Shown here: positions 8,278-63,857 of the stretch, in pieces
How positions within the stretch are numbered: position 1 is the first letter of the stretch
Layout of the letters: every line of letters starts with the position of its first letter
Assembly: GCA_018665815.1 (NCBI GenBank)
Contig: JABJBP010000021.1
Span: forward strand, 122,934-186,933
Length of the DNA stretch: 64,000 bases
Direction of reading: 5' to 3'
Origin: Rhodospirillaceae bacterium
Lineage (GTDB): Bacteria; Pseudomonadota; Alphaproteobacteria; Rhodospirillales; Casp-alpha2
Program-made: the position numbers and the translations under genes
The notes under the pieces: model-generated
What the model was told of the DNA's origin: nothing
Seen by the model: the letters and a program-made list of their open reading frames with translations, nothing else
The model's database searches: none

Positions 8278-8284
8278 CAGCACC

Positions 8285-44985: not shown

Positions 44986-45906
44986 TCAATCGCGCGCGCG
45001 CGCGTTCCTGAGATCCTCGCTATAAGTTTTGACTTCACTCAGAAGAAAATCACGTAGTACACCAATCCGCTTCGAATGTCTTAGTTCTTCAGGATAGACG
45101 AAATACCCGTCAATACTCGGCCCTTCTAAGTCGGGAAGAATTTCGACAAGGTTTGGTGCTTCTTCGCTTAAATAATACGGCAGGGCTGCTATCCCGAGGC
45201 CGCTTCTGACGGCCCGATATATCCCATAGACACTATTGACCCTAAGCGCCGGCTCACGTGGTGTTTCCGGTGGCCGACCGGCCGTAAGCAGCCAGTTGAT
45301 GTCGGTTATTGGCGCTTGGACGTCTTCGCCATATACGATCAGTTTGTGATCATCTAAGTCTTCAGCTTTTTCTGGGATGCCGTGCTCTTCAATATATTCC
45401 TTAGATGCAAATACATGATAATGAATGGTCATAAACCGTCGCTGCACCAGGTTAGGCTGTGTCGGCCGATCGAACCTGATGGCGACGTCAGCTTGCCCCT
45501 GACTCAAATCCAATTCCAAATTATCAACCAGCAACAATGAAACCGAAATGTCAGGATACAACGCTAAAAAACTATTCATCCGTGCGCTCAGCCAAGCTGA
45601 GCCAAACGTTGCAGACGTTGTAATTCGAAGCGGACCTTCGGGGGTCTCTCGGTGTTCATTGATCCGGCCGAGCGCCAATGCCAGCCGCGAAGACATTTCT
45701 TTCACCGCCGTTTGCAGCTCGCTGCCTGGCTCAGTCAAAATAATCCCACTGGCGTGGCGCCGGAACAACATGACTCCTAGCGCACTTTCCAATGCCCCGA
45801 TTTGACGACTGACCGCGGATTGACTCAGATTGAGGACTTTGCCTGCGCCGGTAAAACTACCGACGTCCGCAACAGTGGAAAATACGCGCAATTGATTCCA
45901 GTCCAT
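44986..45906 (-). CDS. LysR family transcriptional regulator
   Basis: A 306-residue LysR protein: N-terminal winged helix (WNQLRVFSTVADVGSFTGAGKVLNLSQSAVSRQIGALE) and a periplasmic-binding-like effector domain. Its end includes a (CG)7 dinucleotide tract at 44991-45004 encoding ARAR. It lies directly downstream (6 bp) of an 89-residue hypothetical gene. It is the closest regulator to the corrinoid operon, which starts 3.8 kb upstream on the same strand, but a direct link is not shown. Confidence 0.88.
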   Translation of the reverse strand: MDWNQLRVFSTVADVGSFTGAGKVLNLSQSAVSRQIGALESALGVMLFRRHASGIILTEPGSELQTAVKEMSSRLALALGRINEHRETPEGPLRITTSATFGSAWLSARMNSFLALYPDISVSLLLVDNLELDLSQGQADVAIRFDRPTQPNLVQRRFMTIHYHVFASKEYIEEHGIPEKAEDLDDHKLIVYGEDVQAPITDINWLLTAGRPPETPREPALRVNSVYGIYRAVRSGLGIAALPYYLSEEAPNLVEILPDLEGPSIDGYFVYPEELRHSKRIGVLRDFLLSEVKTYSEDLRNARARD

Positions 45907-45912
45907 GGGTCC

Positions 45913-46182
45913 TCAAATTTCGTAATCAATGACTGGAAAACGCCAGTCTGAATTGGGGTCTTCGTCTATCGCTACGGCCTTGCCGTTCTCAAGAATAAAC
46001 CATTGTCGCACGTACTTATGTTCGCCCGGCCAAGTATCAAACATCTCAGCATGGCCCGAGCATGGGCTGCCATTATTTAGCTTCAACTCTTTGACCTGCA
46101 CATCCAATAGTGTCGCCGTTTCGGCATTCTCACAATCACCGTCAAAAAAGCATGTCGGTAGAACTTGTCGCAATACAGGCAT
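45913..46182 (-). CDS. Small hypothetical protein
   Basis: An 89-residue protein with Cys at positions 11, 17 and 41 and a Trp-rich second half (TWPGEHKYVRQWFILENGKAVAIDEDPNSDW). No known motif. The tail FPVIDYEI is followed 6 bases later by the LysR start, so the pair is probably co-transcribed. It lies 120 bp downstream of the cytochrome gene. Confidence 0.6.
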   Translation of the reverse strand: MPVLRQVLPTCFFDGDCENAETATLLDVQVKELKLNNGSPCSGHAEMFDTWPGEHKYVRQWFILENGKAVAIDEDPNSDWRFPVIDYEI

Positions 46183-46302
46183 ATTCGAAAATTTCCATTC
46201 GAAAACTTCCGCATGATACTTCCGCGAAACAGAACGTTCGTCAATGATATCTAGGGGTCGGGAAAGCGTATCCGAAAGTTATGAAATTTAAGGGAATTCC
46301 AA

Positions 46303-47439
46303 TCAATCCGTTTGTTTGCCGATCAACAGACCGCGGATCGACGCTTTTTTCTTGGCCGCCAGCAAGTCCGTTTGAGAATTCATTAGCCTCCCCATTGGCG
46401 TGGCGCAGGAGTGAATAAGACGTTTTACCGGCACATAAGCGATAAATGCACACGACCCAAATACATGAACGTACCAAAGTGGTTGGTAAATTGCGCTGGC
46501 GATGTCCCCACCATCACTAAATCCATAGGAAAATACGACACCAACGAATGATGCCAAATTCATGGCGTCGGCGCCGGCGACACTAATACGCGCGCCTTCC
46601 AATACAAATCCGCTCAATACCACGAAAAATAAAAACAAGGCAGTTGGCGTATCAGAATACTTTTGCTCGGGCTTGCCGTTCACAACGACCCGCCAGATTA
46701 GGGCCAGCACGCACCCCAATAACACCATGAGGCCAGTAAAATCATATGCGAAATCGAAAGCCCGCCGGATGGGGTGGTCCAGTTCTTCCCATATATCACG
46801 CATGCCGAAAGCTGGAATTGCCTCGCGAACAAAAACAGCCAAGATTTCAGCGCCAAACATCAATGAGAAGCCCCAAAAAATGAGCGTGTGCTTGAACCAC
46901 CTGAACCGGCTAACGGATAGAAGAGACCGATGCATGATCACATCATCCACCAATGTGCGCCGCATGCTTTCAGGGTCGCTGAGATCTCTCGAAACAAGAT
47001 GCCCAAACCGCTGCCATGTCGGCAGGTTCTTTTTAATCAATAATCGATAAACGCCAAGATCCAGGAAAATAACCGCTGCCAGCACCGTCGGCCCAAACAA
47101 AATCCAATTCAGTTCCATGCGGCCATGCAGCGTCTCGTCGACGAAGAACCCGGAAAGGGCAGCGACTCCCAATACATATAGCCACCCACCCAGACGGAGC
47201 AGACCAACGAATGTCTGCTTCAGCGATTGTGTGTCGAAATATCGGGTAAGAATAAAGATGAAGAACAAACCAGCGCCGAAAAACAACGCCACGGTTGCAA
47301 TCAACAGCAACCCATATCCCCAGGCCTCTATAAGAAAGCCGAACGCACCAAAACCAAACAGCAGAACCGATACTAATATCGGAACAAGTCGCGACGGCGT
47401 AAGTGACGTTCGGGGCTCAATCGCCGCGCCGGTTTGCAT
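46303..47439 (-). CDS. Membrane b-type cytochrome, NarI/HdrE/DsrM-like
   Basis: A 378-residue integral membrane protein with about eight helices. His residues are placed in helix contexts typical of heme b ligands (MHRSLLSVSRFRWFKHTLIFWGFS and WYVHVFGSCAFIAYVPVKRLIH). The family passes electrons between quinones and cytosolic iron-sulfur proteins. No adjacent heterodisulfide-reductase-type FeS gene is seen. It is the last gene of a three-gene operon, 6 bp after the corrinoid protein, so it may supply or remove electrons for the corrinoid methyltransferase. Confidence 0.75.
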   Translation of the reverse strand: MQTGAAIEPRTSLTPSRLVPILVSVLLFGFGAFGFLIEAWGYGLLLIATVALFFGAGLFFIFILTRYFDTQSLKQTFVGLLRLGGWLYVLGVAALSGFFVDETLHGRMELNWILFGPTVLAAVIFLDLGVYRLLIKKNLPTWQRFGHLVSRDLSDPESMRRTLVDDVIMHRSLLSVSRFRWFKHTLIFWGFSLMFGAEILAVFVREAIPAFGMRDIWEELDHPIRRAFDFAYDFTGLMVLLGCVLALIWRVVVNGKPEQKYSDTPTALFLFFVVLSGFVLEGARISVAGADAMNLASFVGVVFSYGFSDGGDIASAIYQPLWYVHVFGSCAFIAYVPVKRLIHSCATPMGRLMNSQTDLLAAKKKASIRGLLIGKQTD

Positions 47440-47445
47440 CTTTGC

Positions 47446-48288
47446 CTATCCCGTGGCGGCGTCCGCCAACTTGGCTTCGTCGCGTTCTTCATCAATCTTT
47501 AACATGGCAGCGTGCAATTCCGGATCGCCGCCCTTCATATTCTTCAAATTGGTGATGCAAGCTTTGGCTTTATCAACGCTAACCAATGCGTCCATTCCAT
47601 AAGCATCGGCACCAATCTTATCACACCAATTTTGGCTGATGGGTGCGCCACCAACAAACACTTTCACATCCTCGCGCAACCCTTCAGCGGTGATCAGTTT
47701 GATGGTTTCCCATTGCATGTTCATGGTGGTGGTCAAAAGCGCCGAAAACCCGACGATTACCGGATTATGCTCGCGGATCGCCGCGATAAACTCATCTGGG
47801 CTGACGGTGACGCCAAGATCCACAACGGTAAACCCGGCCGCTTCCATCATCATCGCAACGATCTTCTTGCCGATATCATGCAGGTCGCCCTGAACAGTGC
47901 CGACAACAACCGTGCCTACATCCTCGGTTTTCTCGGCGATGATCAATGGCTTCAGCAGTTCGAGTGCGGCGTGCATGCATTTCGCTGACATCATGACTTC
48001 CGGCAAGAAGTATTCGTCCATCTTGAAACGGCGCCCGACTTCAGCGATCCCTGTCGCCATGGGGCCAGCAATGAGCGTTCGCGCCGTCACCTTGTCTTTC
48101 AGCGCTTTTTCAATGAACTCCGCGGTGTCCATATGCTCACCTTCAATGATGTTCCATTCAAGTACGTGGAACAGTTCCTTGAGGGCGTCAGGCGCGTCAT
48201 TCCAGCGATCCGTCGCGCGGGATGTCTCAATATCGTGCTTGAGATCTTCCAGATCGAATTCAATCTCTGTTTCGATTTCTAAGGGCAT
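47446..48288 (-). CDS. Corrinoid (cobalamin-binding) methyl carrier protein
   Basis: A 280-residue protein with an N-terminal helical cap (about 30-115) and a C-terminal B12-binding Rossmann domain. The signature D135-x-H137-x-x-G140 (GDLHDIGKKIV) supplies the lower His ligand, and SALLTTT and VGGAP follow. This is the MtaC/MtbC/MetH architecture: it carries a methyl group on cobalt between a substrate methyltransferase and a second acceptor. The start at 48288 gives the proper length; the longer ORF overlaps the UroD-like gene. About 45 N-terminal residues are extra acidic sequence. Operon with a UroD-like methyltransferase and cytochrome b. Confidence 0.88.
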   Translation of the reverse strand: MPLEIETEIEFDLEDLKHDIETSRATDRWNDAPDALKELFHVLEWNIIEGEHMDTAEFIEKALKDKVTARTLIAGPMATGIAEVGRRFKMDEYFLPEVMMSAKCMHAALELLKPLIIAEKTEDVGTVVVGTVQGDLHDIGKKIVAMMMEAAGFTVVDLGVTVSPDEFIAAIREHNPVIVGFSALLTTTMNMQWETIKLITAEGLREDVKVFVGGAPISQNWCDKIGADAYGMDALVSVDKAKACITNLKNMKGGDPELHAAMLKIDEERDEAKLADAATG

Positions 48289-48334
48289 GAGAGTTCTCTC
48301 GCTTACCGATCTATGTGTGTAAAATGGGACAACA

Positions 48335-49693
48335 TTATCGTTGCATCTCTGGAAGGTCATCGCCGACGTCGGCACCCTCGGGCGGTTCTTCCGGCAACGG
48401 ATAGACGCCGTATTGACGGGCTTCGTCGATCATAGCAAGCGTGTTCTCAACGGGAACGTCGTGCTCCAAGCGGTGAGACGAGCTCAATAGGTACCCGCCT
48501 CCTTTGCCCAACTCCCAAATCCGCTGGCGAACTTCCTTGCGCACGTCTTCTTCGGAACCCCATGGCAGCGTTTCTTGAACATCGATGCCGCCATAAAAGA
48601 ACATCCGGTCACCGACCATCAGTTTTTTTGACCGCGGGCCGGAATGCCGGGCCGCTTTCGGCTGCACCGGATCGAAGCCATCAACACATTGTGTCCCACT
48701 TGCCGTCTGCCCACTCAACAAGCCCTCCATGAACGACGTCGGGATGGCGCCACAGCTATGGAATTGAATTCTTCCATTGGGGTTCTTTTGGCGGAAATAT
48801 TCTTTGGTTTCCGAACAAGCCCGATGGTAATGCGGCAGAAGCTGGCGCTGAAACATCTTCAAGGACAGAAACGATGTTTTTTCGCTCGCCAAGTCCTCCG
48901 GGCTGACCCGGATCCAATCAAGGTATTCCCCGCAGACATCGATCATCGCTTTGTTGAACTCAATTTCGAGATCCGTCAACTTGATCAACAAGGCCTCCAA
49001 AAATTCCGGAGACTCAATAAAATCCGAAAAAATCTTCGCGTAACCGACCATATATTTGGCCTGTTCAAACAGTCCACCACGACCGGCCTGCCCCATTAAC
49101 GCGAACGGCGTTTCCTCTTTGACGTACTTACAGTATGACCGCATATCCATGCCGGGAATTGGCGAGTCGTGAAAACATCCTTCGTCGCGCGGATCCGGCC
49201 ACGGAAAGGCCTTCAATTCCTCCAGGCCCTCTTCGATGGGCGCGCTGGTCGCATGGAATAACGGATACCCGATCATTTCCCAATAGCCGCCGTTCTCATG
49301 CGGCGTCCATTTACGTATCACGCCCCATTCATCGACGTTGATGTTCTCGTCATCAGAGACGTCCACATCAAGCTTGAAAGGGAATTCCCCTTTTCGGATG
49401 GAGCGAAATCCCGGCGAGCCGCCCGGCGGCGAGATGGAAATTCGAACGAAATCAAGATCCAATCTCTCTGCGAGATCCAATTCGAAACTGACATCCGCAG
49501 TCCATGTGGTGGACCCGGTCCGATAATTCAACGGGTTTTCATTGAGTTCCATCCCCAATCCGCGACGGAGATGCTGGTAACCTTCAACAGTTCCCCAAAG
49601 TCCCACGGGCACTCGGTCGGGCTCAATCAGATTGATAGCATCCAACGTTCGTTTGCGTTGCGGAGACATCGCTTCGCCGACGATTGCAACCAT
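48335..49693 (-). CDS. UroD-fold corrinoid methyltransferase
   Basis: A 452-residue member of the uroporphyrinogen decarboxylase superfamily, but not HemE: it has the zinc-type motif H312-S-C314-G seen in MtaA/MtbA/CmuA-like methyltransferases, and the C-terminal GGGYLLSSSHRLEHDVPVEN block. N-terminal MSPQRKRTLDAINLIEPDRVPV is the usual start of these enzymes. The protein should move a methyl group to or from the corrinoid protein encoded next to it, 46 bp downstream. In CmuA both parts are fused. The substrate cannot be read from sequence. A GGGAGG site lies 6 bases before the ATG. Confidence 0.85.
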   Translation of the reverse strand: MVAIVGEAMSPQRKRTLDAINLIEPDRVPVGLWGTVEGYQHLRRGLGMELNENPLNYRTGSTTWTADVSFELDLAERLDLDFVRISISPPGGSPGFRSIRKGEFPFKLDVDVSDDENINVDEWGVIRKWTPHENGGYWEMIGYPLFHATSAPIEEGLEELKAFPWPDPRDEGCFHDSPIPGMDMRSYCKYVKEETPFALMGQAGRGGLFEQAKYMVGYAKIFSDFIESPEFLEALLIKLTDLEIEFNKAMIDVCGEYLDWIRVSPEDLASEKTSFLSLKMFQRQLLPHYHRACSETKEYFRQKNPNGRIQFHSCGAIPTSFMEGLLSGQTASGTQCVDGFDPVQPKAARHSGPRSKKLMVGDRMFFYGGIDVQETLPWGSEEDVRKEVRQRIWELGKGGGYLLSSSHRLEHDVPVENTLAMIDEARQYGVYPLPEEPPEGADVGDDLPEMQR

Positions 49694-49813
49694 GAAGTCC
49701 TCCCGAGTTATGCACCGATCTTCAATGTCGTTTATTCAAAATCGATTTTGTTCATTAAATTTATTGTAGGTTTTAGCCAAGGTTAGTGTCGAGATGCAAT
49801 CCCGCCCACACCT

Positions 49814-49850
49814 TATGCGTTTAGGGTATGGGTGGGGGTGGCAACGCATA
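49814..49850. repeat. Stem-loop between the UroD-like and livK-like genes
   Basis: TATGCGTT (49814-49821) and AACGCATA (49843-49850) form a perfect 8-bp inverted repeat with a G-rich 21-base loop. It follows the livK stop by about 20 bases on the minus strand, but lacks a T-run, so it may be a processing or attenuation hairpin in the upstream region of the UroD-like gene. Confidence 0.4.
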
Positions 49851-49872
49851 GCCGCCCCCAAACGCCATTAAC

Positions 49873-51072
49873 CTACTTCATCCACGGTGGCGTGAACGGC
49901 TGAAACTTGCCGCCCTTGTAGACGACATAGTTCATGCTCGGCACGAGAAGATGCTTAATCGCCTCCTCGCCAGGCCCGACTTCACCAATATCGACGACCG
50001 GAACCACACTTCCTTTCCAGTTGTCGATGCCTTCGAGCGTATCAAGAAGGCGCGCACGGGTAATGTCACCACTGCCCATACGCTTGATCGCTTCACTGAA
50101 CACTTGCGCGCCCGTGAAACCCCAAAGGTGAACCGCATCATGCTGCTCTTCGGGATAGTATTTGGTCAAAATGCCCTTGGCTTTTTGAATGTGCTCATTG
50201 GGGTCATCCCATTCGCGGAAAATTGTCGCGAAATAAACACCCTCAACAGCCGCTTGGCCGGCAAGTTCCGGGACTTTCGGGCTTTTACCAAAGAACACGT
50301 TGACGACAGGCACTTTCAGACCAAGTTTCGCCCGCTCGGTATAAACCTTGGCGGCCGGCTCCGGTGCGCAAGAACAGATCATCGCATCAACATTTGCGTT
50401 CTTCATTTTGATGACTTGCGAACTCAGGTCGACTTCCTTCGGCTCATAGCCTTCTGAGGCTACCATTTTGATGCCGTACTGCTTAAGCCCGACTTCAATG
50501 CCCTTCAGGTGGGTCTTACCAGACGCGTCATTCTGATAGATGACACCGATCTTTTTGGCGCCGAAGACTTCCTTGGTAAAGCGAACCAAGTCAGTGCCTT
50601 CTTTGTCATAAGGCGGATAGAGCGGGAACACCGTCCGGCTTTTGTAGAACACGTTCTTCGCGGCACCGGTACCAGCACCGATCAAAGGAATTCCCTTTTC
50701 GACGATATAGTCGATGACAGCCTTGGTCGGGGCTGATCCCAACGGCGCAACGATGGCAAAGCACTTATCGCGCTCAACGAACCGCTTGACGATATTCTTC
50801 GTCCGAGCAGGTTCATACTTATCATCGACCATCTTGTATTTGATCATGCGACCGTTAATGCCACCGTTGGCATTCACGTGCTTGAACCAGGCATCAGCAC
50901 CCTTGCCCATGCGGAAATAGCTCGAAACTTTCCCGGTCATCGGCTGATAGGAGCAAATCAGGATTTCCTTATCGGTCACTCCTGGCCCATTGGCGGCCTG
51001 AGCCCCAAACGCGGCAAGGGAGAGAACCCCCACACCGGCGGCGGTTATAAATGATTTGTAGCTGCGTCTCAT
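49873..51072 (-). CDS. Branched-chain-amino-acid-type ABC transporter binding protein
   Basis: A 399-residue periplasmic binding protein of the LivJ/LivK family: signal peptide (GVGVLSLAAFGAQAA), ILICSYQPMTGKVSSYFRMGKGADAWFKHVNANGG, IYQNDASGKTHLKGIEVG and a C-terminal lobe. Ligands in this family range from amino acids to urea, amides and betaine-like compounds, so the substrate is open. It lies between the liv permease genes and the corrinoid operon. A GGGAGG site precedes the ATG. The 213 bp upstream shows no gene. Confidence 0.85.
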   Translation of the reverse strand: MRRSYKSFITAAGVGVLSLAAFGAQAANGPGVTDKEILICSYQPMTGKVSSYFRMGKGADAWFKHVNANGGINGRMIKYKMVDDKYEPARTKNIVKRFVERDKCFAIVAPLGSAPTKAVIDYIVEKGIPLIGAGTGAAKNVFYKSRTVFPLYPPYDKEGTDLVRFTKEVFGAKKIGVIYQNDASGKTHLKGIEVGLKQYGIKMVASEGYEPKEVDLSSQVIKMKNANVDAMICSCAPEPAAKVYTERAKLGLKVPVVNVFFGKSPKVPELAGQAAVEGVYFATIFREWDDPNEHIQKAKGILTKYYPEEQHDAVHLWGFTGAQVFSEAIKRMGSGDITRARLLDTLEGIDNWKGSVVPVVDIGEVGPGEEAIKHLLVPSMNYVVYKGGKFQPFTPPWMK

Positions 51073-51285: not shown

Positions 51286-51999
51286 TCAGGCGCCCATGTA
51301 AGATTCGATAACCTCCTTGTTTTGACGCAAATCGCCGGCAACGCCTTCAACGGCGACACGCCCGACTTGTAAGACATAACCAAAACTAGAATTTTTCAGC
51401 GCTATATTAGCATTTTGCTCAACAACCAGCATCGTCATCCGTTTTTCTTCATTGATTTTTCTGAGCGTTGCGAAAATGTCGGCGATTATTATTGGCGCCA
51501 AACCCAGCGATGGCTCATCGAGCAACAGCAATCTTGGCCGCGCCATGAGGCCTCGTCCAATGGCCAGCATTTGTTGCTCACCGCCGCTAAGCGTGCCGCC
51601 CAATTGCTTCGCGCGTTCGCTCAAGCGCGGGAACAGCTCGAGGATCATGTCCAAATCTTTGCTGATTTCGGCCTTATCACTGCGGGCGTAGGCGCCCATT
51701 CTCAGATTTTCCGCGACGGTCAAATCCTTAAATATTTTCCGCCCCTCGGGGACTTGCGCAATGCCCAACCGAACAATCTGATTGGGCGTCATACCATTCA
51801 GCCGTTTCCCATCAAATTCGATTTCGCCGGCCGTGGGCTTCACGACCCCTGAGATAGCTTTCAAGGTCGTGGATTTGCCGGCTCCATTGGCGCCGAGCAC
51901 TGCTACGACTGCACCTTCGGCAACGTCCATCGACACGCCCTGTAAGGCGCGGACTGCACCATAGCTGGCTTCCAAATTGGATAAGCGAAGCAAGGTCAT
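51286..51999 (-). CDS. livF: Liv-type ABC transporter ATP-binding protein (LivF)
   Basis: A 237-residue ABC ATPase: Walker A GANGAGKSTT, signature LSGGEQQMLAIGRGLM, Walker B LLLLDEPSLGLAP. GLAP and the short length are typical of LivF. Overlaps livG by 4 bp. It is the last of the four co-directed transporter core genes; its binding protein is next, 213 bp downstream. Confidence 0.92.
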   Translation of the reverse strand: MTLLRLSNLEASYGAVRALQGVSMDVAEGAVVAVLGANGAGKSTTLKAISGVVKPTAGEIEFDGKRLNGMTPNQIVRLGIAQVPEGRKIFKDLTVAENLRMGAYARSDKAEISKDLDMILELFPRLSERAKQLGGTLSGGEQQMLAIGRGLMARPRLLLLDEPSLGLAPIIIADIFATLRKINEEKRMTMLVVEQNANIALKNSSFGYVLQVGRVAVEGVAGDLRQNKEVIESYMGA

Positions 52000-52763
52000 T
52001 CGTCGTCCTCACCCAGGTAAGCTTTGATAACATCACGATTGGACTGAATTTCAGATGGCGTCCCTTGCGCAAGATTAGCGCCAAAATTAATCACGCAAAT
52101 ATAATCACAAACTGTCATCACCATCGCCATGTCGTGCTCGACCAGAAAAATCGTAATGCCCAATTCCGAATTGATCCGCTTAACGATTTCCTTCAATTCA
52201 GCCGTTTCCTCATCGTTGCAGCCGGCAACAGGCTCATCGAGAAGGATCATTTCAGGTTTGGCCGCCAACGCGCGAGCCATCTCGACTCGTTTTTGATGCC
52301 CGTATGGCAAATTCTTAACGGGATTGTCCAACTCATCGCCCAAGTTCAACATCTCGGCAATTTCGACGGCGCGGTCGGTCAATTCCCGTTCGTTTCGCCG
52401 CGCTGATGGCAACCAGAGCATATTGCTATAAGGATTCCCGATCAGGTGATGCGCACCGATCAATATATTTTCAAGTGTCGTTTGCTCACCGAAAAGATTG
52501 ATGTTCTGGAACGTCCGGGCCATGCCCAGATTGATCATGTCATGGGTGTTTTTGGCGTCGATTTGCTGATCACGATAATAAACATGCCCGTCGTCGCAAT
52601 CTTGGAACCGGCTAAGAACATTAAAAAGCGTGGTCTTCCCGGCGCCGTTGGGACCAATCAATCCAATGATTTTCCCCTCCTCGACATCGAGCGAAATCTT
52701 ATTGCAGGCAACAACGCCGCCGAACCTGACCGTCACCTCATCGCAGCGCAAATGAGACGTCAT
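51996..52763 (-). CDS. livG: Liv-type ABC transporter ATP-binding protein (LivG)
   Basis: A 255-residue ABC ATPase with Walker A GPNGAGKTTLFN, MARTFQNINLF Q-loop region, and Walker B MILLDEPVAGCNDEET. The start at 52763 is placed after GGAGGGGACACACA and overlaps the livM stop by 4 bp. Note that the LSGGQ motif is replaced by LPYGHQKRVEMARAL, as commonly seen in LivG. Confidence 0.92.
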   Translation of the reverse strand: MTSHLRCDEVTVRFGGVVACNKISLDVEEGKIIGLIGPNGAGKTTLFNVLSRFQDCDDGHVYYRDQQIDAKNTHDMINLGMARTFQNINLFGEQTTLENILIGAHHLIGNPYSNMLWLPSARRNERELTDRAVEIAEMLNLGDELDNPVKNLPYGHQKRVEMARALAAKPEMILLDEPVAGCNDEETAELKEIVKRINSELGITIFLVEHDMAMVMTVCDYICVINFGANLAQGTPSEIQSNRDVIKAYLGEDDE

Positions 52764-53761: not shown

Positions 53762-53795
53762 GGGCGCCCTCGCGAGTATTGGCTGCCAGCATCTC

Positions 53796-55520: not shown

Positions 55521-55531
55521 TTGCCCCTCCC

Positions 55532-57646
55532 TCAATTCGCCGGCCGAACGCGGACTTTGCATTCGTTATAGCAGTTGGCACCGGTAACGGGGTTCGTGTG
55601 CGTATCCATCAAGTTATTGGAGTGAGCCCCTTTGCCTTTCGCAACCGAGCCCATCGCCCAGTGGCCGAACCCATGGCCGTGACGAATAGAAACGCAACCG
55701 GGCACCAATCCTTCAACCACCTTGGCCAGGATTCTAATTTTATCTTTGGGTGATTCCACCGTGACGTAAGTATCGTCCTGGATGCCGTATTTCGCGGCAT
55801 CGACGCTGTTAATCTCGACCCAATTTTCTCCGCAAATCTCCATCAGATAGGGATTATTTTGCGTGACGATATTGCAATGCATGGAGAACTTCGAATGGGT
55901 AATCTGTAGCGGAAATTCCTCATCGGGTATGACACTGCGTTCAGTGAATTCCGGATAAGCATTGAAACCGGCGTTTACATAATCCGTCGAATAAATTTCG
56001 ACTTTCCCAGAGGGCGTCGGCAGTCCACCGGGTACGCGGTTATATTTGACCTCGTCTGCCCAGAACCCTTTTTCTTTGAGTTCATCAACACTCATGGGGA
56101 CGTCTTTCATCATAACTTCGCCCCAGTCTTCCCATTTCTCATAAGGGAAGTGTTCGCCCCAGCCCATTTTTTCGGCAATGCCTTTGACGATCTCGTAGGG
56201 TGGTTTTGAATCACCGACCCGATCAACAACAGGTTGGCAAAGCACGACTTCCGGCCCCAGCCACATGCCTTGGCGAATTTCAGCTTGCTCGTGGAAGGAC
56301 GTCTCCGGTAGCACGATATCGCACTCCAACGCCGTTTCACTGAGGTATAGTTCACATGCCACAGCCAGTTCGAGATGTTTGAACATCTCCATAACCCGAT
56401 CCCTGTTCGGGTCGCTCATGACCGGATTGGTCGCATGCACGAACAGTCCTTTGACCGGATAAGGGTCGCCGTTGATGACGGCATCCGGAAGTCTCGAGTT
56501 TGGCAGGTCCGGCGCCAATGCATAACCCATAGCAATGTGCAGTGGATCTTTTTCCGGCTGCCGCATAGCGTCAGCTGGAATCTCCACTGGTGCGCCCAAT
56601 GGCGCCCAATCTTTCAGATGAATGTTGCCGGGTTTGTCGACCTCGCCACAGATCGCGTCCAAGATATAGCACGCACGGCCGGCATCATGGCCGTTGGTGT
56701 AGTACCCCGAGCCTTTGAAAATAGCTGACATGGCGGGTTTCGTGGTCGCAAACTCACGTGCTAGGCGGGTAATTGTCGCAGCCTCGATACCACAAATTTC
56801 TTCGGCCCATTCCGGTGTGTAGCCTTTATCGTGCAAGTGGTCGCGGAAACCGTTGAAGCCCTCGCAATACTGGTTGACGAAGGCTTCGTCATAAAGCTTT
56901 TCATCGATGATGACCCGGCACATGGCCAATGCCATGGCACCGTCAGTCCCCGGTCGGATAGGCACCCACTCGTCGGCTTTCTGCGCGGTTTCCGTGAAAT
57001 TCGGATCGACAACGACCAAGCGGCACCCCTTGGCTTGAGCCTCAATCAGCGCACGGCTTTCCCACAATCCTTGATTGGCACCCAGCATGTTCATGCCCCA
57101 AAGCATGACAAACTTCGAATTAGCAAAGTCATGCATGGGGAACACATGGCCGAACAGTGTCAGGCACGCCGAGCGTCGATCTTGTTCGCAGCCGGATGTA
57201 TGCGCGTACATGTTCGGCGAACCGTAAAGATCCTTAAGAAGATGATGATAGAAGACCGTGTTCGGATCATGGTGACAGGTCAGCGCAACGGCTTCCGGCC
57301 CCCACTTGTCGGCAATTAATTTCAGTTTGTTGGCAATGAACTGAAATGCCTCATCCCAGGAAATTTGCTTGAACTCGCCGCGCTCGCCTTTCGGGTTTGT
57401 GCGCAGAAGCGGCGTCGTCAAACGGTCCGGGTCTTGGCTCACGTACCAACTGGCCATGCCCTTGGCACAGCGCGATCCAATGTTGTTGGGTGATTCGGGA
57501 TTACCTTTTTGGTAAACGATCCGACCGTCGCGAACGAAAACTTCCGTCGGGCATTGCCATGGACAGGTATAACAGAAGCTCTTGATGACCTCGGCACCTT
57601 TGATTTCGGCCAGCTGAGATCCCAAATCCTTAGTTGTCACCGACAT
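55532..57646 (-). CDS. Cytoplasmic molybdopterin oxidoreductase of the DMSO reductase family
   Basis: A 704-residue protein. An N-terminal 4Fe-4S site is C25, C28, C32, C60 (CYTCPWQC, SRCAKG). The probable molybdenum ligand is C153 in AHTSGCEQDRRSA, as in polysulfide/thiosulfate and arsenate reductase-like groups. Other family blocks include WGMNMLGANQGLWESRALIEAQAKG, VIPDEEFPLQ and the C-terminal GHWAMGSVAKGKGAHSNNL. No Tat signal is seen. With the ferredoxin subunit and a possible membrane cytochrome it would form an electron-transfer enzyme of unknown substrate. A weak promoter precedes it. Confidence 0.85.
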   Translation of the reverse strand: MSVTTKDLGSQLAEIKGAEVIKSFCYTCPWQCPTEVFVRDGRIVYQKGNPESPNNIGSRCAKGMASWYVSQDPDRLTTPLLRTNPKGERGEFKQISWDEAFQFIANKLKLIADKWGPEAVALTCHHDPNTVFYHHLLKDLYGSPNMYAHTSGCEQDRRSACLTLFGHVFPMHDFANSKFVMLWGMNMLGANQGLWESRALIEAQAKGCRLVVVDPNFTETAQKADEWVPIRPGTDGAMALAMCRVIIDEKLYDEAFVNQYCEGFNGFRDHLHDKGYTPEWAEEICGIEAATITRLAREFATTKPAMSAIFKGSGYYTNGHDAGRACYILDAICGEVDKPGNIHLKDWAPLGAPVEIPADAMRQPEKDPLHIAMGYALAPDLPNSRLPDAVINGDPYPVKGLFVHATNPVMSDPNRDRVMEMFKHLELAVACELYLSETALECDIVLPETSFHEQAEIRQGMWLGPEVVLCQPVVDRVGDSKPPYEIVKGIAEKMGWGEHFPYEKWEDWGEVMMKDVPMSVDELKEKGFWADEVKYNRVPGGLPTPSGKVEIYSTDYVNAGFNAYPEFTERSVIPDEEFPLQITHSKFSMHCNIVTQNNPYLMEICGENWVEINSVDAAKYGIQDDTYVTVESPKDKIRILAKVVEGLVPGCVSIRHGHGFGHWAMGSVAKGKGAHSNNLMDTHTNPVTGANCYNECKVRVRPAN

Positions 57647-57750: not shown

Positions 57751-57869
57751 CTTGAGGCGACGAAAGCTTGCCGGTGAGCAAGCCGGCGTACGCCCGGTTC
57801 GCCTGCAATATGCACAACCGGTATGGGGCAAGCCGAAAGACGCATACGCGCCGATGCCTCAAATTTAAG

Positions 57870-58751
57870 CTATTCGCGCGGTAGTCTTCTGGCGATAAGG
57901 CGGTAAATCCCGCCGCCGATCAGTGCACCGACAATCGGTGCTACGATGTAGACCGTGAAAAACCCGCCCCGCGGCCCGGGAATGGCGATGCTGTCCCACC
58001 CCAGGAAAAATGAAACCAAGCGGGGGCCGAAATCTCGCGCCGGATTGAGACCGGCCTGCGTTAGAGGCGCGACAACGGATATGATCGCAGCCACACCAAG
58101 CCCAATCATAACTGCCTGCATCGCCGACGGCGGACGCGAGGTGTTGCGATCATGGGTCACAGCCGCGACTAAGAACGCCAGCATCGCGGTCCCCACCATC
58201 TCGGAAATAAACGCCGAGGAAGGACTAACGATCCGCCAGGCATCTTCCGCCGTACCGAAGATCGCAGGGTTCGGGAAATATTCACCAAACATCATGGCGC
58301 TCAATTCACTACCCGGCCCACCTCGTAACAAGCCATGTTGTCGCTCGAACTCAATGATGGATTCCGAGAACATGCCGTAGAGCACTAACGATGCCGTCGC
58401 CGCGCCGGCAACCTGGGCGACCCAATAGGGGACAACCCATCGAGCGGGGAAGCGATCATAAACCGCAGCGACGACCGTAATAGCCGGATTGATATGGGCA
58501 CCGGACAATGACGCCGCCGTGTAAATTCCCAGGCTCACGCCGACAGCCCATACAACAGCAACTTGCCAAAGCCCGGCTTGAGCGCCCGTGGCAACCGCCG
58601 CATTGACGGAACCTACGCCGAAAAAGACGAGCACGAATGTCCCGAAATATTCGCCGGCCATCGCCGACAATAGGTTAGGTTTCGATTCACGCGCTGCGGG
58701 CGTTGGATCATCGCCGGAACTTTCCTCGTGAGATAGTGTTTCTTCGCTCAC
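57870..58751 (-). CDS. Aquaglyceroporin (MIP family)
   Basis: A 293-residue channel with six helices and two half-helices. The NPA motif 1 is SGAHINPAIT (residues 88-90), motif 2 is AGLNPARDFGPR (236-238) with D240, and the loop YFPNPAIFG is glycerol-facilitator-like. The Asp after the second NPA marks an aquaglyceroporin rather than a water-only channel. Such channels pass glycerol, urea and uncharged arsenite; AqpS of Sinorhizobium lies in an arsenic operon. It overlaps the pentapeptide gene by 4 bp and is the last gene of the aioBA operon. The N-terminal 25 residues are acidic and soluble. Confidence 0.9.
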   Translation of the reverse strand: MSEETLSHEESSGDDPTPAARESKPNLLSAMAGEYFGTFVLVFFGVGSVNAAVATGAQAGLWQVAVVWAVGVSLGIYTAASLSGAHINPAITVVAAVYDRFPARWVVPYWVAQVAGAATASLVLYGMFSESIIEFERQHGLLRGGPGSELSAMMFGEYFPNPAIFGTAEDAWRIVSPSSAFISEMVGTAMLAFLVAAVTHDRNTSRPPSAMQAVMIGLGVAAIISVVAPLTQAGLNPARDFGPRLVSFFLGWDSIAIPGPRGGFFTVYIVAPIVGALIGGGIYRLIARRLPRE

Positions 58752-59782
58752 TTGGTTACTCCTCCCCCTAGGCTCGCCGGCACATTCCGCGCCGCTGCTA
58801 TGTAAACATCATCTTTATCAATTTCACCGAGTTTTATGCCGGACAAATTCGACTGCGTAAGGTCGGTTCGGTCAAATTTCGCATCGGTGAAATCGGCGCC
58901 TCGCAAATCGGCCCCAGACAATTGAGCCAACGACAATTTGCTGCCGCGGAATACCGCATTGTTGAGATGCGCAGCATACGCACGCACCCAACCTAAATCG
59001 GAATTCGAAAAATCCGCACCTTCGGCGCGGCTCCAACTAAGATCAGCGTATCCCAACTTCGCAGACACGAGCTTGGCGCCGGTCAGAACAGCTTCTTCAA
59101 ACTTCACGTTCGTTAAGTTGGCGCCAGTCATATCAGCATTGGTCAAATCGGCGCCACGCAATACGGCACCGCTCGGCCCCGGGTGCCCCAATCCAAGTGA
59201 TCCAACATTGGCTTTTTTGAAGTTGGCGCCGACAAGACTCGCTTGGCTAAAATCGGCGCCGGCCATGAAGGCTGCACTGAAATCGACATTCTCGCCGTGT
59301 GCTTTAATCAATCTAGCCCCCGGCAAATAGGCCCCGACGAAAACAGCATTATCGATTTTCGCCGCGTCAAGCACAGCCAAAGCCAAGGCTGCCTTCGCAA
59401 AATTCGCCCCTCGGAGATTTGCCCGTGTCAGATCGGCATTCCCCAAATTGGCTTTCGAAAAAATCGTCCCCTCAGCCTTTATTTCCCGCAAATAGGCTTC
59501 TCTCAGATCGGCACCCTTCAAGCTGGCACCCGTCAAGTCCGCGCCGGTAAGGTTGGCGCCAGTCAAATCAGCACCATCCAAATTTGCGTTCTTTAAGTTT
59601 GCGTTGCGCAGATCAGCGCCAGACATCTTCTTCCCATGCAGATCGGCGCCGGACAAGTTTGCGCCAACGAGGTTCCGCTTAGCGGCTGTCACGTCTATGG
59701 ACTGGCCACGGACGGTGTGCACAGATCCGAACACAGTTAACGCCACCATCACGGCGGGAAATATGCCCTTTGTCCGCATCAT
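58748..59782 (-). CDS. Exported pentapeptide-repeat protein
   Basis: A 344-residue protein with a signal peptide (GIFPAVMVALTVFGSVHTVRGQ) and about 50 consecutive A(D/N)LxG-type pentapeptide repeats, beginning NLVGANLSGADLHGKKMSGADL. Such repeats fold into a right-handed quadrilateral beta-helix. No enzymatic domain is present. An ATGA overlap at each end couples it to aioA upstream and to the aquaglyceroporin downstream. It is presumably periplasmic and could act as a scaffold, but this is only context. Confidence 0.9.
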   Translation of the reverse strand: MMRTKGIFPAVMVALTVFGSVHTVRGQSIDVTAAKRNLVGANLSGADLHGKKMSGADLRNANLKNANLDGADLTGANLTGADLTGASLKGADLREAYLREIKAEGTIFSKANLGNADLTRANLRGANFAKAALALAVLDAAKIDNAVFVGAYLPGARLIKAHGENVDFSAAFMAGADFSQASLVGANFKKANVGSLGLGHPGPSGAVLRGADLTNADMTGANLTNVKFEEAVLTGAKLVSAKLGYADLSWSRAEGADFSNSDLGWVRAYAAHLNNAVFRGSKLSLAQLSGADLRGADFTDAKFDRTDLTQSNLSGIKLGEIDKDDVYIAAARNVPASLGGGVTK

Positions 59783-62268
59783 TCCGCGATATTCCTCGGC
59801 AGGAATGACGCTGTCTTCGCGGATTCAGGCATCGGCCCAATTCGTTTGATATCGGCCCAAACACCTTTGTAATAAGGGATCGTAGTTTTCGGGTCGACGT
59901 GGTCCGAAATCAAGTCACCAACGGCGCCACGCGGTTGGCCAAACAACATAAAGGCATGGTTTCTTTTGACCGCATCTGTGACGTACGCCATGGCTTCGAC
60001 TGTGCCGACATCATTGGAAACTTCAAGCAAGTCACCTGCCGAAATCCCCAATTCAATGGCATCTTCAGCATGAATCTCCAGCAAAGGAACCGGATAACGC
60101 TCGCGGTAAAAATCGATATGGCGATGATGGTAAATCGTCTGCCAAATATGGTTGGCCCGGCCGTTGTTGATCCAAAACCGATAATTTTTCCGCTGCCGTT
60201 CGACAGCCGACGCGTATCCCGGCCAAGGCCTAGGTGCAGCAATGAACTTCGCCTTGCCGGAAGGTGTAAAAAATTTTCCATCTTCATGCATGCGCACTGT
60301 GCCGACGGGGACACGATTAACCAGCCGGACGGGTGTCTGAATCCCGTTGTTTCCAAGATCTTTAAGCAGATTGTAGGTAATCCCCGCGTATCCTTCCGGG
60401 GGGTCATTGCCGTCGCCCTTGAAACTGTAACGGGCATGAATGAACACATCTTCATCGCCCCGCCAATCGTAATCTAAGAATCGGTTGGCCATCAGCGGGT
60501 TTCGATCCTGCTGATAAAGCTTGTTCAAGCGCTTGGCGAACAGCGCCATGATTTTCCAGTCTGGGATGGCGGCACCCGGCGGGTCCATGAAACGCTGATA
60601 AAGGCGCAACCGGCGCTCGCCATTGATCGACGTAATATTCATTTCGCCCCATTGGGCGGCCGGCAGGACGAGGTGGGCATGGCGCGCCGTTGCAGTCATA
60701 TAAATATCCTGTGTCAGGATAAACATACCGCCATCCTTCAGCGCTTCGACAACGGCCGTCACCCGCTCGCCCACGGGGCGTCCCGCCGTCCGCACCAAGG
60801 CATCGCGCACTGGTCGACCGCGCTCTTTTAACGTGGCCTCCATTTTCTCGGCCCGCAAGGTGGTCAGAACTGGATTACAGCCGCCAACCCAAAACACCTT
60901 AGCCTCACCACGGTGCACAGCTTCATCGACATTCAACGCTGGGCGTCCACCTGGATATGGGGGCCGCACGTAACCTTCCTGATGTCCGCCTAGCCGGCTC
61001 ACGCCTGTTCCTGGCTTGCCGACGTTGCCACTCAATAACGCCAAATCAATGATAGAAGCGATATTCTCATAATTTTTCAGGCCCCAAATCAGGCCTTTTT
61101 CGTAATGCAAAAGTGTTCGGCGCCGCGCTTTGTTCTTTTTCGGCTTGGCGATCCATTCTGCAGCCTTGTAGAGATCTTTTTCATCAACTCCGGCAAGTTC
61201 AGCGGCTACGCGAACAAACTCACTGGCATCTCTATCTGCACCCAACGAGGATCGCTGGTAGGCTTCAAAAGTCTGCCACTCCGTGCGTTGTTTGATGAAC
61301 GCGACGTCGTGCCAGCGCCGCTCGAGAACGATACGTGATATCGCATTCAGCACCGCAATATCCGTACCCGGCTCAATCTGAAGATGCAGAACGTTTTCCT
61401 TGCCAGCCGCCGCTTCCGCGGTGGCGACGCTGATGGTCCGGCGCGGGTCGACAATGATCATTCGGCCAGAAGGTGCATCTTCGCCTGGGAAGGTTGAGCC
61501 CTTCAAATCCGCGGATTCGCCATTCAAATTTCTAATCATATGATTGAGAAAATAGTTCGTCTGCGTCTCATAGGGATTGGCGCCAACGATGAGGATCGTA
61601 TCGGCGAGTTGCGCATCCACATAAGCATTCGTCAATGCGACCAACCCGGCATCGCCGGCGGCATGCACTTCGGAGTTATAAGCTGGCCGATTGTGAATAG
61701 AGGCCGTGCGGGTCCCAACGCCTGAGAAAAAGAAACGCCCGACCGCCCAGTTATTTTCGAACCCGCCTCCGCCGCCGCCATGATCGAAAAACTTCATTCC
61801 GACGGCATCGGCACCCCAGCGGTCAATGACCGCCTTGATCACCCGCGCCCCCAAATCGACGGCGTCATTCCACGACGCATTGTCAAAGCCTTCGGCCTTG
61901 GCCACCAGCGGCGTTGACAGGCGCACCTTAGTTCCGCGTTTTGGTGAATATAGAGTTTGCGCAAGACCGCCACCGCGAACAGATGCCATGCCGCTGTTCA
62001 CAACACATTCGTTGTCCGGCACGATGGCAACGTTGTACGTCTTCCCGTCCTTTTCATGGATTTGGGAATGCATCGCCGGCGATATCCATTCGCCATCCGC
62101 CGGCTGGGGTTCTCGGAAATCGACACCTAAAGCATTCGCATCAGGGGCGGCGGCACCGTCCGCACCTTCCGGCCATTTGAACACACGGTAACCGCACCCA
62201 ACGATACAGAACTGACAAACCGTTCTATAGGTTTTTGCGTCTTTCGGCGGCAGAGGAACACGGGTCAT
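59779..62268 (-). CDS. aioA: Arsenite oxidase large subunit-like molybdoenzyme
   Basis: An 829-residue protein, near the length of AioA (about 825). The N-terminal 3Fe-4S site is C18, C21, C25 (CQFCIVGC) with S96 at the fourth position, 71 residues after C25, as in AioA. The residues that line the arsenite site of the Alcaligenes enzyme (H195, E203, R419, H423) are present as H192, E200, R425 and H429 (IHNRPAYNSE, SRLGGHQEG). There is no signal peptide; AioA is exported together with Tat-borne AioB, whose gene lies 12 bp upstream. It oxidises As(III) to As(V) in the periplasm. No cytochrome c or AioSR/X gene is nearby. Confidence 0.9.
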   Translation of the reverse strand: MTRVPLPPKDAKTYRTVCQFCIVGCGYRVFKWPEGADGAAAPDANALGVDFREPQPADGEWISPAMHSQIHEKDGKTYNVAIVPDNECVVNSGMASVRGGGLAQTLYSPKRGTKVRLSTPLVAKAEGFDNASWNDAVDLGARVIKAVIDRWGADAVGMKFFDHGGGGGGFENNWAVGRFFFSGVGTRTASIHNRPAYNSEVHAAGDAGLVALTNAYVDAQLADTILIVGANPYETQTNYFLNHMIRNLNGESADLKGSTFPGEDAPSGRMIIVDPRRTISVATAEAAAGKENVLHLQIEPGTDIAVLNAISRIVLERRWHDVAFIKQRTEWQTFEAYQRSSLGADRDASEFVRVAAELAGVDEKDLYKAAEWIAKPKKNKARRRTLLHYEKGLIWGLKNYENIASIIDLALLSGNVGKPGTGVSRLGGHQEGYVRPPYPGGRPALNVDEAVHRGEAKVFWVGGCNPVLTTLRAEKMEATLKERGRPVRDALVRTAGRPVGERVTAVVEALKDGGMFILTQDIYMTATARHAHLVLPAAQWGEMNITSINGERRLRLYQRFMDPPGAAIPDWKIMALFAKRLNKLYQQDRNPLMANRFLDYDWRGDEDVFIHARYSFKGDGNDPPEGYAGITYNLLKDLGNNGIQTPVRLVNRVPVGTVRMHEDGKFFTPSGKAKFIAAPRPWPGYASAVERQRKNYRFWINNGRANHIWQTIYHHRHIDFYRERYPVPLLEIHAEDAIELGISAGDLLEVSNDVGTVEAMAYVTDAVKRNHAFMLFGQPRGAVGDLISDHVDPKTTIPYYKGVWADIKRIGPMPESAKTASFLPRNIAE

Positions 62269-62280
62269 AATTTGTACCGA

Positions 62281-62775
62281 TTAGAGGATATTGGTGTGAC
62301 GCCCGTAAATCAGCCCGTCGACCCCGGTCGCACGGACCATGCCATCAGCAACATCAAGTTGAACACTCGGCAACGATTGGCTGGCCTGTCCGATAACCAG
62401 ACGCCCGCTCTTCGCGGGATCGAAGCTGCTCCAATGGCAAGGGCAGACGAGCATTTGTCTATCTGCCAAATAATTCAGCGGGCATCCCTTGTGTGTACAC
62501 AGCATGGAATAGGCAACAATATCCTTGTTCGGACCTATACCGCCGGCAACGGGAGCCGCTAATCGCAAAAGCACGGCGGGAGAATCAGCGTCCGGATAGT
62601 CAAAAGCGACTTCCGCGCCGGGTGCAAGTGAGCCCAGCGGCGCAACATCAACAACCGGATATTCAGTCTTGGTTGCCGCATTTGGCGATTTAGCCGCAGC
62701 ACCGACCGTCGTCGCAGCGGCGATGCCGGCAACACTGGTCTTTATAAAATCTCGTCGGTTTACACCGCTCATCAC
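62281..62775 (-). CDS. aioB: Arsenite oxidase small subunit-like Rieske protein
   Basis: A 164-residue Rieske protein with a twin-arginine signal (NRRDFIKTSVAGIAAATTVGAAA) at the N-terminus. Cluster ligands are C93-x-H95 and C111-x-x-H114 (MLCTHKGC, VCPCHWSSFD), with C98 and C113 as the possible disulfide pair. It precedes aioA by 12 bp, the canonical aioBA order, and carries the large subunit through the Tat system. The Rieske cluster would pass electrons to a cytochrome or azurin not encoded here. Confidence 0.92.
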   Translation of the reverse strand: MMSGVNRRDFIKTSVAGIAAATTVGAAAKSPNAATKTEYPVVDVAPLGSLAPGAEVAFDYPDADSPAVLLRLAAPVAGGIGPNKDIVAYSMLCTHKGCPLNYLADRQMLVCPCHWSSFDPAKSGRLVIGQASQSLPSVQLDVADGMVRATGVDGLIYGRHTNIL

Positions 62776-62921
62776 GTCCTCCCCACCTTGGTTGGCACCA
62801 TCATCCGTATCGGAACACTGGTGCTATCAAGATTGCTCCCGGGCACTCGGCAAACCTCGCCGCGCGCCACCCTGATTGTCCAACCCACGGTGACGAAGTC
62901 AAGGTGTCGGTTTACCCGCGC

Positions 62922-63857
62922 CTAATAAATATCTGATGTTACTTTGAAGCCAGGCCCCTTGGCATTCAAGACGAACTGACCATCGATCACACCATAGGTC
63001 CATTTTGCCGTCTTTTTCAGCCCGCCCAGCGGATACATATGTGTGCCAACCAAGCCACAATTTGGATCATTCGCTTTGTAATCCGCCAATTCAGCGATCA
63101 ATTTATCCGGCGTTGATACCGACATTAACTTTGTCACGTTCCGAGCCTGCTTTTTAAGGAACGTCATGGAATTTCCGACACCACACGCCATAGCGTAATT
63201 GAGCAGCGTCTTTATTGTCGCGAGGCCAGGAATGCCAATCCGAATAGGCATTTGGTTGCCGGCGGCCCGTATGGCCTGGTCCCAAGCAATGATTGGCGCC
63301 GCTTCAAAACAGAATTGCGTCAATATATACAGATCGGCACCGGTTCTCTGTTGAAAATCATTTTTCCTCGTAACCGCCTTGGCAATATCTTCATCGGAAA
63401 TGTCGGAACTGCCCTCCGGATGCCCAGCGACGCCAATTCTGCGAATGCCATGTGTGTCGAGTAGGCCCGTTTCGAGAATTTGCATGGTGTCCGAAAATGC
63501 ACCAATCGGCTGATCGATGCCGCCGGCCACAACCAAGACCTCATCAACATCCGCTTGATCTTTCAGCCGTCGCAATCCGTCATCGAGAAACGATTGGTCA
63601 GGAATACTGCGGGCTGCCAGATGTGGCACCGGGTTGAACCCTTCGTTGCGTAACCTCGCGGACGTGGCAATGGTATCAGCAAAATCCGACCCCGGTAGGA
63701 ACGTCACGGATACCGTCGTTCCCGGCCGTAAAATTTGCCGAAAATCCTCTATTTTTGCCGCCGAGAACGGCGTCGTTTCGGCCGTAAAATCGGCAACGAA
63801 ATCGACAATATTCTGATCCGGACTTACCAGATCCGAAGTTTGAGCGGCCAGCGACAT
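62922..63857 (-). CDS. Methylenetetrahydrofolate reductase (MetF) family protein
   Basis: A 311-residue TIM-barrel flavoprotein of the MTHFR family: an E-containing first strand (DFTAETTPFSAAKIEDF), SVTFLPG, VPHLAAR, VLVVAGGIDQPIGAFSDTMQIL, VAGHPEG and LTQFCFEA are family blocks. It interconverts 5-methyl-THF and 5,10-methylene-THF. In chloromethane users a MetF2 accompanies a UroD/corrinoid methyltransferase and runs oxidatively; here it is 146 bp upstream of aioB. GGAGTAAATT precedes the ATG. The last 143 bases of the window upstream of it show no gene. Confidence 0.87.
   Translation of the reverse strand: MSLAAQTSDLVSPDQNIVDFVADFTAETTPFSAAKIEDFRQILRPGTTVSVTFLPGSDFADTIATSARLRNEGFNPVPHLAARSIPDQSFLDDGLRRLKDQADVDEVLVVAGGIDQPIGAFSDTMQILETGLLDTHGIRRIGVAGHPEGSSDISDEDIAKAVTRKNDFQQRTGADLYILTQFCFEAAPIIAWDQAIRAAGNQMPIRIGIPGLATIKTLLNYAMACGVGNSMTFLKKQARNVTKLMSVSTPDKLIAELADYKANDPNCGLVGTHMYPLGGLKKTAKWTYGVIDGQFVLNAKGPGFKVTSDIY

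Follow-up and report, generated by a model that had tools for sequence, protein, structure and literature searches.

The 64,000-nucleotide stretch analysed here, referred to as the window, comes from contig JABJBP010000021.1 of a Rhodospirillaceae bacterium and carries a gene block in which an arsenite oxidase of the AioBA family stands beside a predicted corrinoid-dependent methyl-transfer system built around a UroD-fold protein, UroD1. As read from the genes, it would be a variant of the corrinoid methyl-transfer systems that is tied genetically to arsenite oxidation, and searches of the open-licence literature showed no report of such a cluster. The block is a minus-strand run of 17 genes from position 63857 down to 44986, of which family scans assigned 16 to domains and left one small gene without a family; overlaps between neighbours reach at most 41 bases and gaps at most 255 bases. 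An earlier sequence-only reading of this DNA had listed 16 genes on the minus strand with mostly short gaps, and the scans found all of them where it had placed them. The run from metF to the LysR gene stood as described, but the cluster continues past the window onto another contig (C36), and the 17th gene, encoding an 89-residue protein, had gone unmentioned.

Gene content and continuation of the block

The run opens with a MetF-like methylenetetrahydrofolate reductase (62922..63857; PF02219, 32.5 bits against a cut-off of 24), followed by the Rieske subunit AioB (62281..62775; TIGR02694, 155.6, cut-off 95.65) and the molybdopterin subunit AioA (59779..62268; TIGR02693, 984.7, cut-off 359.05), both of which exceed the curated cut-offs of the arsenite oxidase family by a wide margin. 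Next to these lie a pentapeptide-repeat protein (58748..59782; PF00805), whose N-terminus looks signal-like by eye, and an aquaglyceroporin-type MIP channel (57870..58751; TIGR00861, 177.2, cut-off 171.25). MolyA, a cytoplasmic-looking molybdoenzyme of the PsrA/PhsA/ArrA type (55532..57646), and MolyB, its 4Fe-4S ferredoxin subunit (54951..55562; PF13247; TIGR02951 at 150.4, under the cut-off of 214.1), precede a Liv-type ATP-binding cassette (ABC) importer made up of LivH-type (53796..54695) and LivM-type (52760..53833) permeases, both PF02653, LivG-type (51996..52796) and LivF-type (51286..51999) ATPases assigned by family profiles, and a substrate-binding protein (49873..51072; PF13458). 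UroD1, the predicted first methyltransferase (48335..49693; PF01208), and corrinoid protein 1 (47446..48375; PF02310 and PF02607, with a DLHDIG cobalamin motif at residue 164) follow, and the run closes with a NarI-like cytochrome b-type membrane protein (46303..47439; PF02665 at 22.1, just under the cut-off of 22.9), the 89-residue protein (45913..46182; no Pfam or NCBIfam match at E 0.001) and a LysR-type regulator (44986..45906; PF00126 and PF03466). No structured RNA scored over threshold in the window, and contig C36 carries one tRNA.

The end of the window is the end of its contig, C109, and the last 141 bases (63860..64000) overlap exactly with the end of contig C36 from the same genome; because of this exact overlap, the two contigs are very likely neighbours. 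Upstream of metF, three relatives (genomes G153, G937 and G938) encode a MetH-activation-like protein, a pterin-binding methyltransferase, a second UroD protein (UroD2), corrinoid protein 2, a RACo-type reactivase, a CobW GTPase and a GntR/FCD regulator, and all seven have matches on C36, where the remaining part of the cluster occupies L070:10928-18332. C36 terminates 210 bases past its GntR/FCD regulator, and the distance from regulator to metF across the join is 212 bases, compared with 118–184 in four relatives; the full block spans about 26 kb. Profiles matched by the G153 proteins are PF00809 (pterin-binding), URO-D, B12-binding, RACo and CobW, while the MetH-activation-like protein matched nothing in Pfam or NCBIfam at the limits used and weakly resembles 1j6r (E 0.0049). 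The joined block would carry the parts of a complete methyl-transfer chain: UroD1 and UroD2 as predicted first methyltransferases, the two corrinoid proteins as carriers, a methyltransferase to folate, the reactivase and MetF.

Side observations were made on both flanks of the block. Upstream of the second module, on the opposite strand, L070:9550-10146 encodes a 198-residue protein that is 41–63% identical in L071, L073, L074 and L076; of four genes tested on this flank, it is the one common to four loci, and the other three occur only in L074 and L076. On the LysR side, eight window genes had no match in the 6.6–18 kb beyond LysR in L017, L018 and L032, the sole match anywhere being a 32% identical DeoR protein in L075. 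Outside the conserved block, window positions 32389-36912 hold a phosphonate-type ABC importer (PhnD, PF12974) and a DeoR-type regulator. L075, a locus of genome G065, carries at 7237-10936, upstream of its UroD2 module, an MttB-like methyltransferase (TIGR02369 at 390.9, under the cut-off of 525), then genes that by eye resemble PhnW and PhnX, with an ABC importer before them; these genes could possibly serve the demethylation of N-methylated aminoethylphosphonate via the same folate methyltransferase.

Recurrence of the linkage across genomes

Relatives were sought in samples of 199 genomes of the order, 385 of the class and 398 of the phylum, complemented by a scan of contigs from named genomes that contributed five loci. 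UroD1 is rare: it occurs in 6 of the 199 order genomes and in one genome each of the class and phylum samples, in both cases the window's own. No UroD1 match was obtained in plasmid records at E 1e-30, and none further in 10 genomes of G065's family. The distinct UroD1 genomes number nine: the window's own (G000), G165, which is placed in the same genus, G153, G028, G065, G114, G936, G937 (a Magnetovibrio metagenome-assembled genome, MAG) and G938 (a BH24 MAG). Locus L019 is contig C28 of G165, L020 is part of contig C60 of G065, and the label G939 refers to G065 again.

The order metF-aioB-aioA-pentapeptide-channel recurs in six of the nine (G000, G165, G153, G936, G937 and G938). AioBA and UroD1 share a single contig in four (G000, G153, G937 and G938); G165 and G936 show pieces of the conserved order, broken by contig ends, and G028 has aioBA, pentapeptide and channel genes with a LysR gene on a different contig from uroD1. 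A divergent AioA clade is represented in seven UroD1 genomes, MolyA in eight (the ninth, G165, having MolyB only), the channel in all nine, in G165 by a fragment, and the UroD2 module in eight, G936 being the genome in which it was not found. The sequence-only reading had allowed for two unrelated clusters and had proposed conserved synteny as the check, taking a failure of the UroD/corrinoid and aioBA genes ever to co-occur elsewhere as evidence against a common module. The presence of the AioA clade in seven of nine UroD1 genomes and the shared gene order speak for one module, and the same order recurs in relatives.

Within the order sample, all four genomes with the AioA clade (at least 72% identity) and all five with MolyA belong to the six that have UroD1; two other genomes there carry ordinary AioA (44%) without UroD1. 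Hypergeometric probabilities of the co-occurrence with UroD1 are 2.4e-7 for the AioA clade and 2.4e-9 for MolyA, values that ignore kinship and overstate the case because the genomes are kin. Among the best 120 homologue clusters per list from the protein database, coincidences in a longest contig of identical size above 10 kb numbered three for UroD1 and AioA, six for UroD1 and MolyA and two for AioA and MolyA. Control runs, in which one list was shifted 1000 times, averaged 0.063, 0.050 and 0.072 and peaked at 2, 1 and 2; the test is weak alone because it covers only the best 120 of 480 (UroD1), 3424 and 6519 hits. At the level of sequence comparison, the linkage of UroD1, AioA and MolyA is not a matter of chance. 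UroD1, the clade AioA and MolyA each have at least 119 listed homologues that are at least 69% identical, some of them assigned by name to Gamma- and Betaproteobacteria, Hyphomicrobiales and Rhodospirillales; the distribution of the parts goes beyond the genomes read here.

The Liv importer is a looser neighbour. Only in the window's genome does it lie between molyB and uroD1; it adjoins UroD1 in three of the nine genomes (G000, G028 and G065), whereas molyB directly precedes uroD1 in G153, G165, G936, G937 and G938. Relatives of the binding protein that are 72–91% identical occur in five of the eight other genomes; in G153, G937 and G938 they are 88–91% identical and reside on other contigs, by eye with their own permeases and ATPases nearby in G153 and G937 and with an ATPase in G938. 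In G114, G165 and G936 the binding protein was not found at E 1e-60.

Properties of the encoded proteins

The arsenite pocket of AioA is formed by His195, Glu203, Arg419 and His423 (Alcaligenes faecalis numbering), with Ala199 near the molybdenum, and a CX2CX3C motif plus a Ser ligates its 3Fe-4S cluster. All five residues and the cluster Ser are kept in 17 of 17 rows of the clade, 11 of which are database proteins taken without their gene neighbourhoods; in the window's protein the 3Fe-4S residues are C18, C21, C25 and S96. In a midpoint-rooted tree, in which Cytobacillus, Thermus, Vibrio and Cupriavidus form long branches, the cluster clade has support of 100/100 and its union with the canonical proteobacterial AioA 94/90. 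AioB begins with a twin-arginine-like NRRDFIK, with PF10518 (TAT_signal) at 22.2, just under its cut-off of 22.7. AioBA is predicted to oxidise arsenite.

An identity as the iodate reductase IdrA, whose place in such a pathway would suggest methyl iodide as the substrate, is not favoured. Iodate reductase loci of the IdrABP1P2 type have two cytochrome c peroxidase genes next to idrAB (PMC8692401). An Azonexus relative, 30% identical, has two genes annotated as such beside it, with Asp at the position of Glu203 and Ser at that of Ala199. The window's AioA is 42.6% identical to that of NT-26 as against 30% to the Azonexus protein, it keeps the arsenite pocket, and family scans found no cytochrome c peroxidase among the 17 cluster genes.

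UroD1 and corrinoid protein 1 are clear by Pfam and score below the named methyltransferase models that they matched. A sequence search of UroD1 against solved structures at E 0.1 gave no relative, its top matches being chance hits to a metalloproteinase, and a structure was therefore predicted; the model (mean predicted local distance difference test score, pLDDT, 77.4) matches UROD and a methylcobalamin:coenzyme M methyltransferase. On the MtaA/CmuA model TIGR01463 (cut-off 235.4), UroD1 reaches 22.1 and the UroD2 of G153 69.7, both under the cut-off. The MtaA/CmuA family has a zinc site of the form His-X-Cys...Cys. Of this site, the His and first Cys are kept, His407 of UroD1 occupies the column of the last Cys of 4ay7, and UroD2 likewise has a His opposite that Cys; H312, C314 and H407 of UroD1 are invariant in 40 of 40 aligned rows and make up a predicted His-Cys-His metal site. 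Chloromethane or another methyl halide is not favoured as the substrate: the block shows no sign of it, and UroD1 scores far below the MtaA/CmuA cut-off. The predicted UroD-fold first methyltransferase, a corrinoid protein with a DXHXXG motif, a second methyltransferase and an activator lie together in one gene run, a combination that suggests a corrinoid methyl-transfer system. MetF has 7xg9 as its closest solved relative (219.9 bits, residues 21–288) and is predicted to run in the direction of methyl-tetrahydrofolate oxidation. The sequence-only reading's route of a methyl group via cobalt to folate gains strength from the second methyltransferase, the reactivase and MetF in the same run.

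Further UroD-family frames were noticed. In G165 (C28:8329-10269), the open frame that holds uroD1 is 654 residues long and includes query residues 81–275 twice in-frame, perhaps an assembly artefact. The window's own genome has such frames on contigs C19, C56 and C111, beyond the two of the cluster and the best match on C7, which is probably the heme enzyme.

MolyA has PhsA as its best NCBIfam profile (421.6 against a cut-off of 694), scores 201.6 on the ArrA profile (cut-off 1600) and has a Cys that aligns with a Cys of PsrA and ArrA; no twin-arginine start was found in its N-terminus. Its closest solved chain is 2vpw, the PsrA-type enzyme of Thermus, which is annotated as a thiosulfate reductase. 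Given the PhsA profile and this chain, a formate dehydrogenase is not favoured. The sequence-only reading had a molybdoenzyme oxidise the demethylated residue; MolyA itself scores under the curated cut-off of ArrA and under that of PhsA. The MIP channel has glycerol facilitators as its nearest solved relatives; this class passes arsenite, and the channel is likely the arsenite exit. Among the smaller genes, the pentapeptide-repeat gene follows aioA in seven of seven genomes with the AioA clade and is one of the least conserved (49–56% identity, 64% for a fragment). The 89-residue protein follows the cytochrome b gene in five other genomes at 51–66% identity, and no match to it was found in the G065 and G114 loci.

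A proposed pathway and rival readings

On balance, we read the block as a putative system for corrinoid-dependent demethylation of methylarsenicals and oxidation of the methyl group, coupled to arsenite oxidation, a reading in which we infer the substrate, the direction and the role of MolyAB. We are evenly divided about its fuller form, a complete B12-dependent methylarsenotrophy, in which two UroD/corrinoid pairs would demethylate dimethyl- and methylarsenicals, a folate route would yield energy, and AioBA would both remove arsenite and gain electrons. Methylarsenate or dimethylarsenate would enter the cell, in some genomes perhaps via the Liv importer, and MolyAB with the cytochrome b would reduce the methylated arsenate inside; MolyA as a methylarsenate reductase is proposed as a guess. 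Methyl groups would be moved to cobalt by UroD1 with corrinoid protein 1 and by UroD2 with corrinoid protein 2, each pair possibly serving a different methylation state. From cobalt, the pterin-binding methyltransferase would hand them to tetrahydrofolate, MetF would begin their oxidation towards CO2, and RACo would bring oxidised cobalt back into use. Arsenite would exit through the channel and be turned into arsenate by the periplasmic AioBA, which may pull demethylation forward.

The strongest argument for an arsenic substrate is that arsenic genes of three kinds, AioBA, ArsA and ArsM, appear around the same parts. In G065, ArsA lies between the channel and MolyAB (TIGR04291, 779.9 bits, cut-off 650), and in G114, the stretch from a channel fragment to the UroD2 module contains ArsM (NF008823, 316.5, cut-off 263) along with other frames. 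For the methylated arsenical of the sequence-only reading, the arsenic residue has gained ground through the kept AioA pocket and through ArsA and ArsM in these two genomes; the substrate and the direction of methyl transfer we still infer. As to the chemistry, methylotrophic methanogens demethylate methylated arsenic, probably via corrinoid proteins by a mechanism described as unclear (PMC6776024, PMC10579292). For MtaA of methanogens, a UroD relative (PMC10418091), a review reports methyl transfer from methylcobalamin to arsenic (PMC13262295), and methylcobalamin can methylate arsenite with no enzyme present (PMC2801198). The MtaA and non-enzymatic cases make methyl transfer between cobalt and arsenic chemically real.

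Several observations weigh against this interpretation, in addition to the kinship of the genomes and to the AioA–MolyA shared-contig figure, which equals the maximum of its shifted control. G065 (95% complete) and G114 (77%) have UroD1, MolyA and the channel and gave no AioA match, and nine ordinary AioA loci of the class sample had no UroD1, corrinoid, MolyA or metF gene within the 9.5–20 kb read. ArsM was found in only two of the nine genomes (ACR3, ArsC, ArsH and ArsI were not searched for), and in G938 the gene, with 52% identity, lies on a different contig from the cluster. The role of MolyA is a guess because of its scores below the ArrA and PhsA cut-offs. The importer, which the sequence-only reading had made the entry point of the pathway, cannot be kept as an integral part, since it lies beside UroD1 in three of nine genomes, elsewhere in three and was not found in three; it is probably linked in function, yet not a fixed part of the cluster. 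Finally, arsenic is the methyl acceptor in the MtaA and methylcobalamin transfers, whereas the proposed methanogen route has it as the donor.

The alternative that survives best, which we consider unlikely, is that the methyl-transfer genes serve a methylated compound without arsenic (a betaine, sulfonium, methoxy compound or halide) and that the arsenic genes are a neighbouring detoxification or energy island under shared control. UroD-fold enzymes accept different methyl donors (PMC13222342), the UroD1 family of 480 proteins is larger than the genomes read, and G065 has UroD1 without the clade AioA as well as MttB-like and, by eye, phosphonate-like genes adjoining its second module. Against this explanation stand the recurrence of the arsenic link in three forms around the same parts and the finding of the clade AioA and MolyA only with UroD1 in the order sample. 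Doubtful to a greater degree is a reverse pathway in which MetF would supply methyl-tetrahydrofolate, UroD1 would methylate arsenite in a B12-dependent manner and AioBA would provide a parallel detoxification. It is kept as a rival because the transfers described for MtaA (PMC13262295) and methylcobalamin (PMC2801198) go towards arsenic, and sequence cannot tell the direction; a periplasmic arsenite oxidase would, however, draw on the same substrate, and the importer that adjoins UroD1 in three genomes suits substrate uptake rather than product export. That two unrelated clusters became adjacent by accident is highly improbable, for although G028 has aioBA-pentapeptide-channel and uroD1 on separate contigs and no clade AioA was found in G065 or G114, the order is shared on single contigs in four genomes and in pieces in two more, and conservation ends beyond LysR.

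Demethylation of dimethylarsenic has been observed in soil and sea, its enzyme being reported as unclear (PMC10579292, PMC6426599); the demethylating enzyme presented there as established is ArsI, whose substrate is monomethyl arsenic. The corrinoid-dependent demethylation proposed here offers a concrete candidate set, namely UroD1/corrinoid 1, UroD2/corrinoid 2, the folate methyltransferase and MolyAB, together with an AioBA that forms a separate clade. If the proposal is true, the block would be the first set of genes identified for removing methyl groups from arsenic by a corrinoid route, and it would provide the missing enzyme of dimethylarsenate demethylation. A group of alphaproteobacteria would then draw carbon or energy from methylated arsenic, an AioA clade now named plain arsenite oxidase may mark methylarsenic use, and corrinoid methyl transfer would extend to a new substrate class.

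Comparison with known systems

Canonical AioBA islands share with the block an AioB and an AioA with the arsenite-pocket residues. The NT-26 island comprises aioX, a sensor kinase, aioR, aioB and aioA, whereas no aioX, sensor or aioR is found among the cluster genes here; the window's AioA is 38–45% identical to plasmid-borne AioA (42.6% to NT-26), forms its own clade and is embedded in methyl-transfer genes. Regarding methyl transfer, MetF takes part in the CmuA/CmuB route of chloromethane use, which like the block combines UroD and corrinoid domains and passes the methyl group to folate. CmuA unites the first methyltransferase and the corrinoid protein, and CmuB is the second methyltransferase (PMC13222342), while the block encodes UroD and corrinoid as two proteins and has arsenic-related neighbours. 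Three-component corrinoid methyltransferase systems, such as CdmBCA of Acetobacterium dehalogenans and those of the O-demethylases MtvB, OdmB and VdmB (PMC13222342), also have a UroD-superfamily first methyltransferase, a separate corrinoid protein, a tetrahydrofolate methyltransferase and an activator; the present system differs in being alphaproteobacterial and in having two UroD/corrinoid pairs, MetF, a molybdoenzyme and AioBA. Type 1 mlp clusters resemble it in their several UroD-type methyltransferases, corrinoid protein and reactivase, but as described in PMC10418091 they come without a tetrahydrofolate methyltransferase and belong to obligate anaerobes, whereas here a PF00809 protein is present and arsenic genes are linked. 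The proposed pathway also has a likeness in SAR11, whose cells oxidise the methyl groups of dimethylarsenate to CO2 by a folate route and have an aquaporin in their arsenic module (PMC6426599). That paper established no demethylase, and the candidate it offers is a CsdB protein with an ArsI-like domain rather than a corrinoid system of the kind predicted here.

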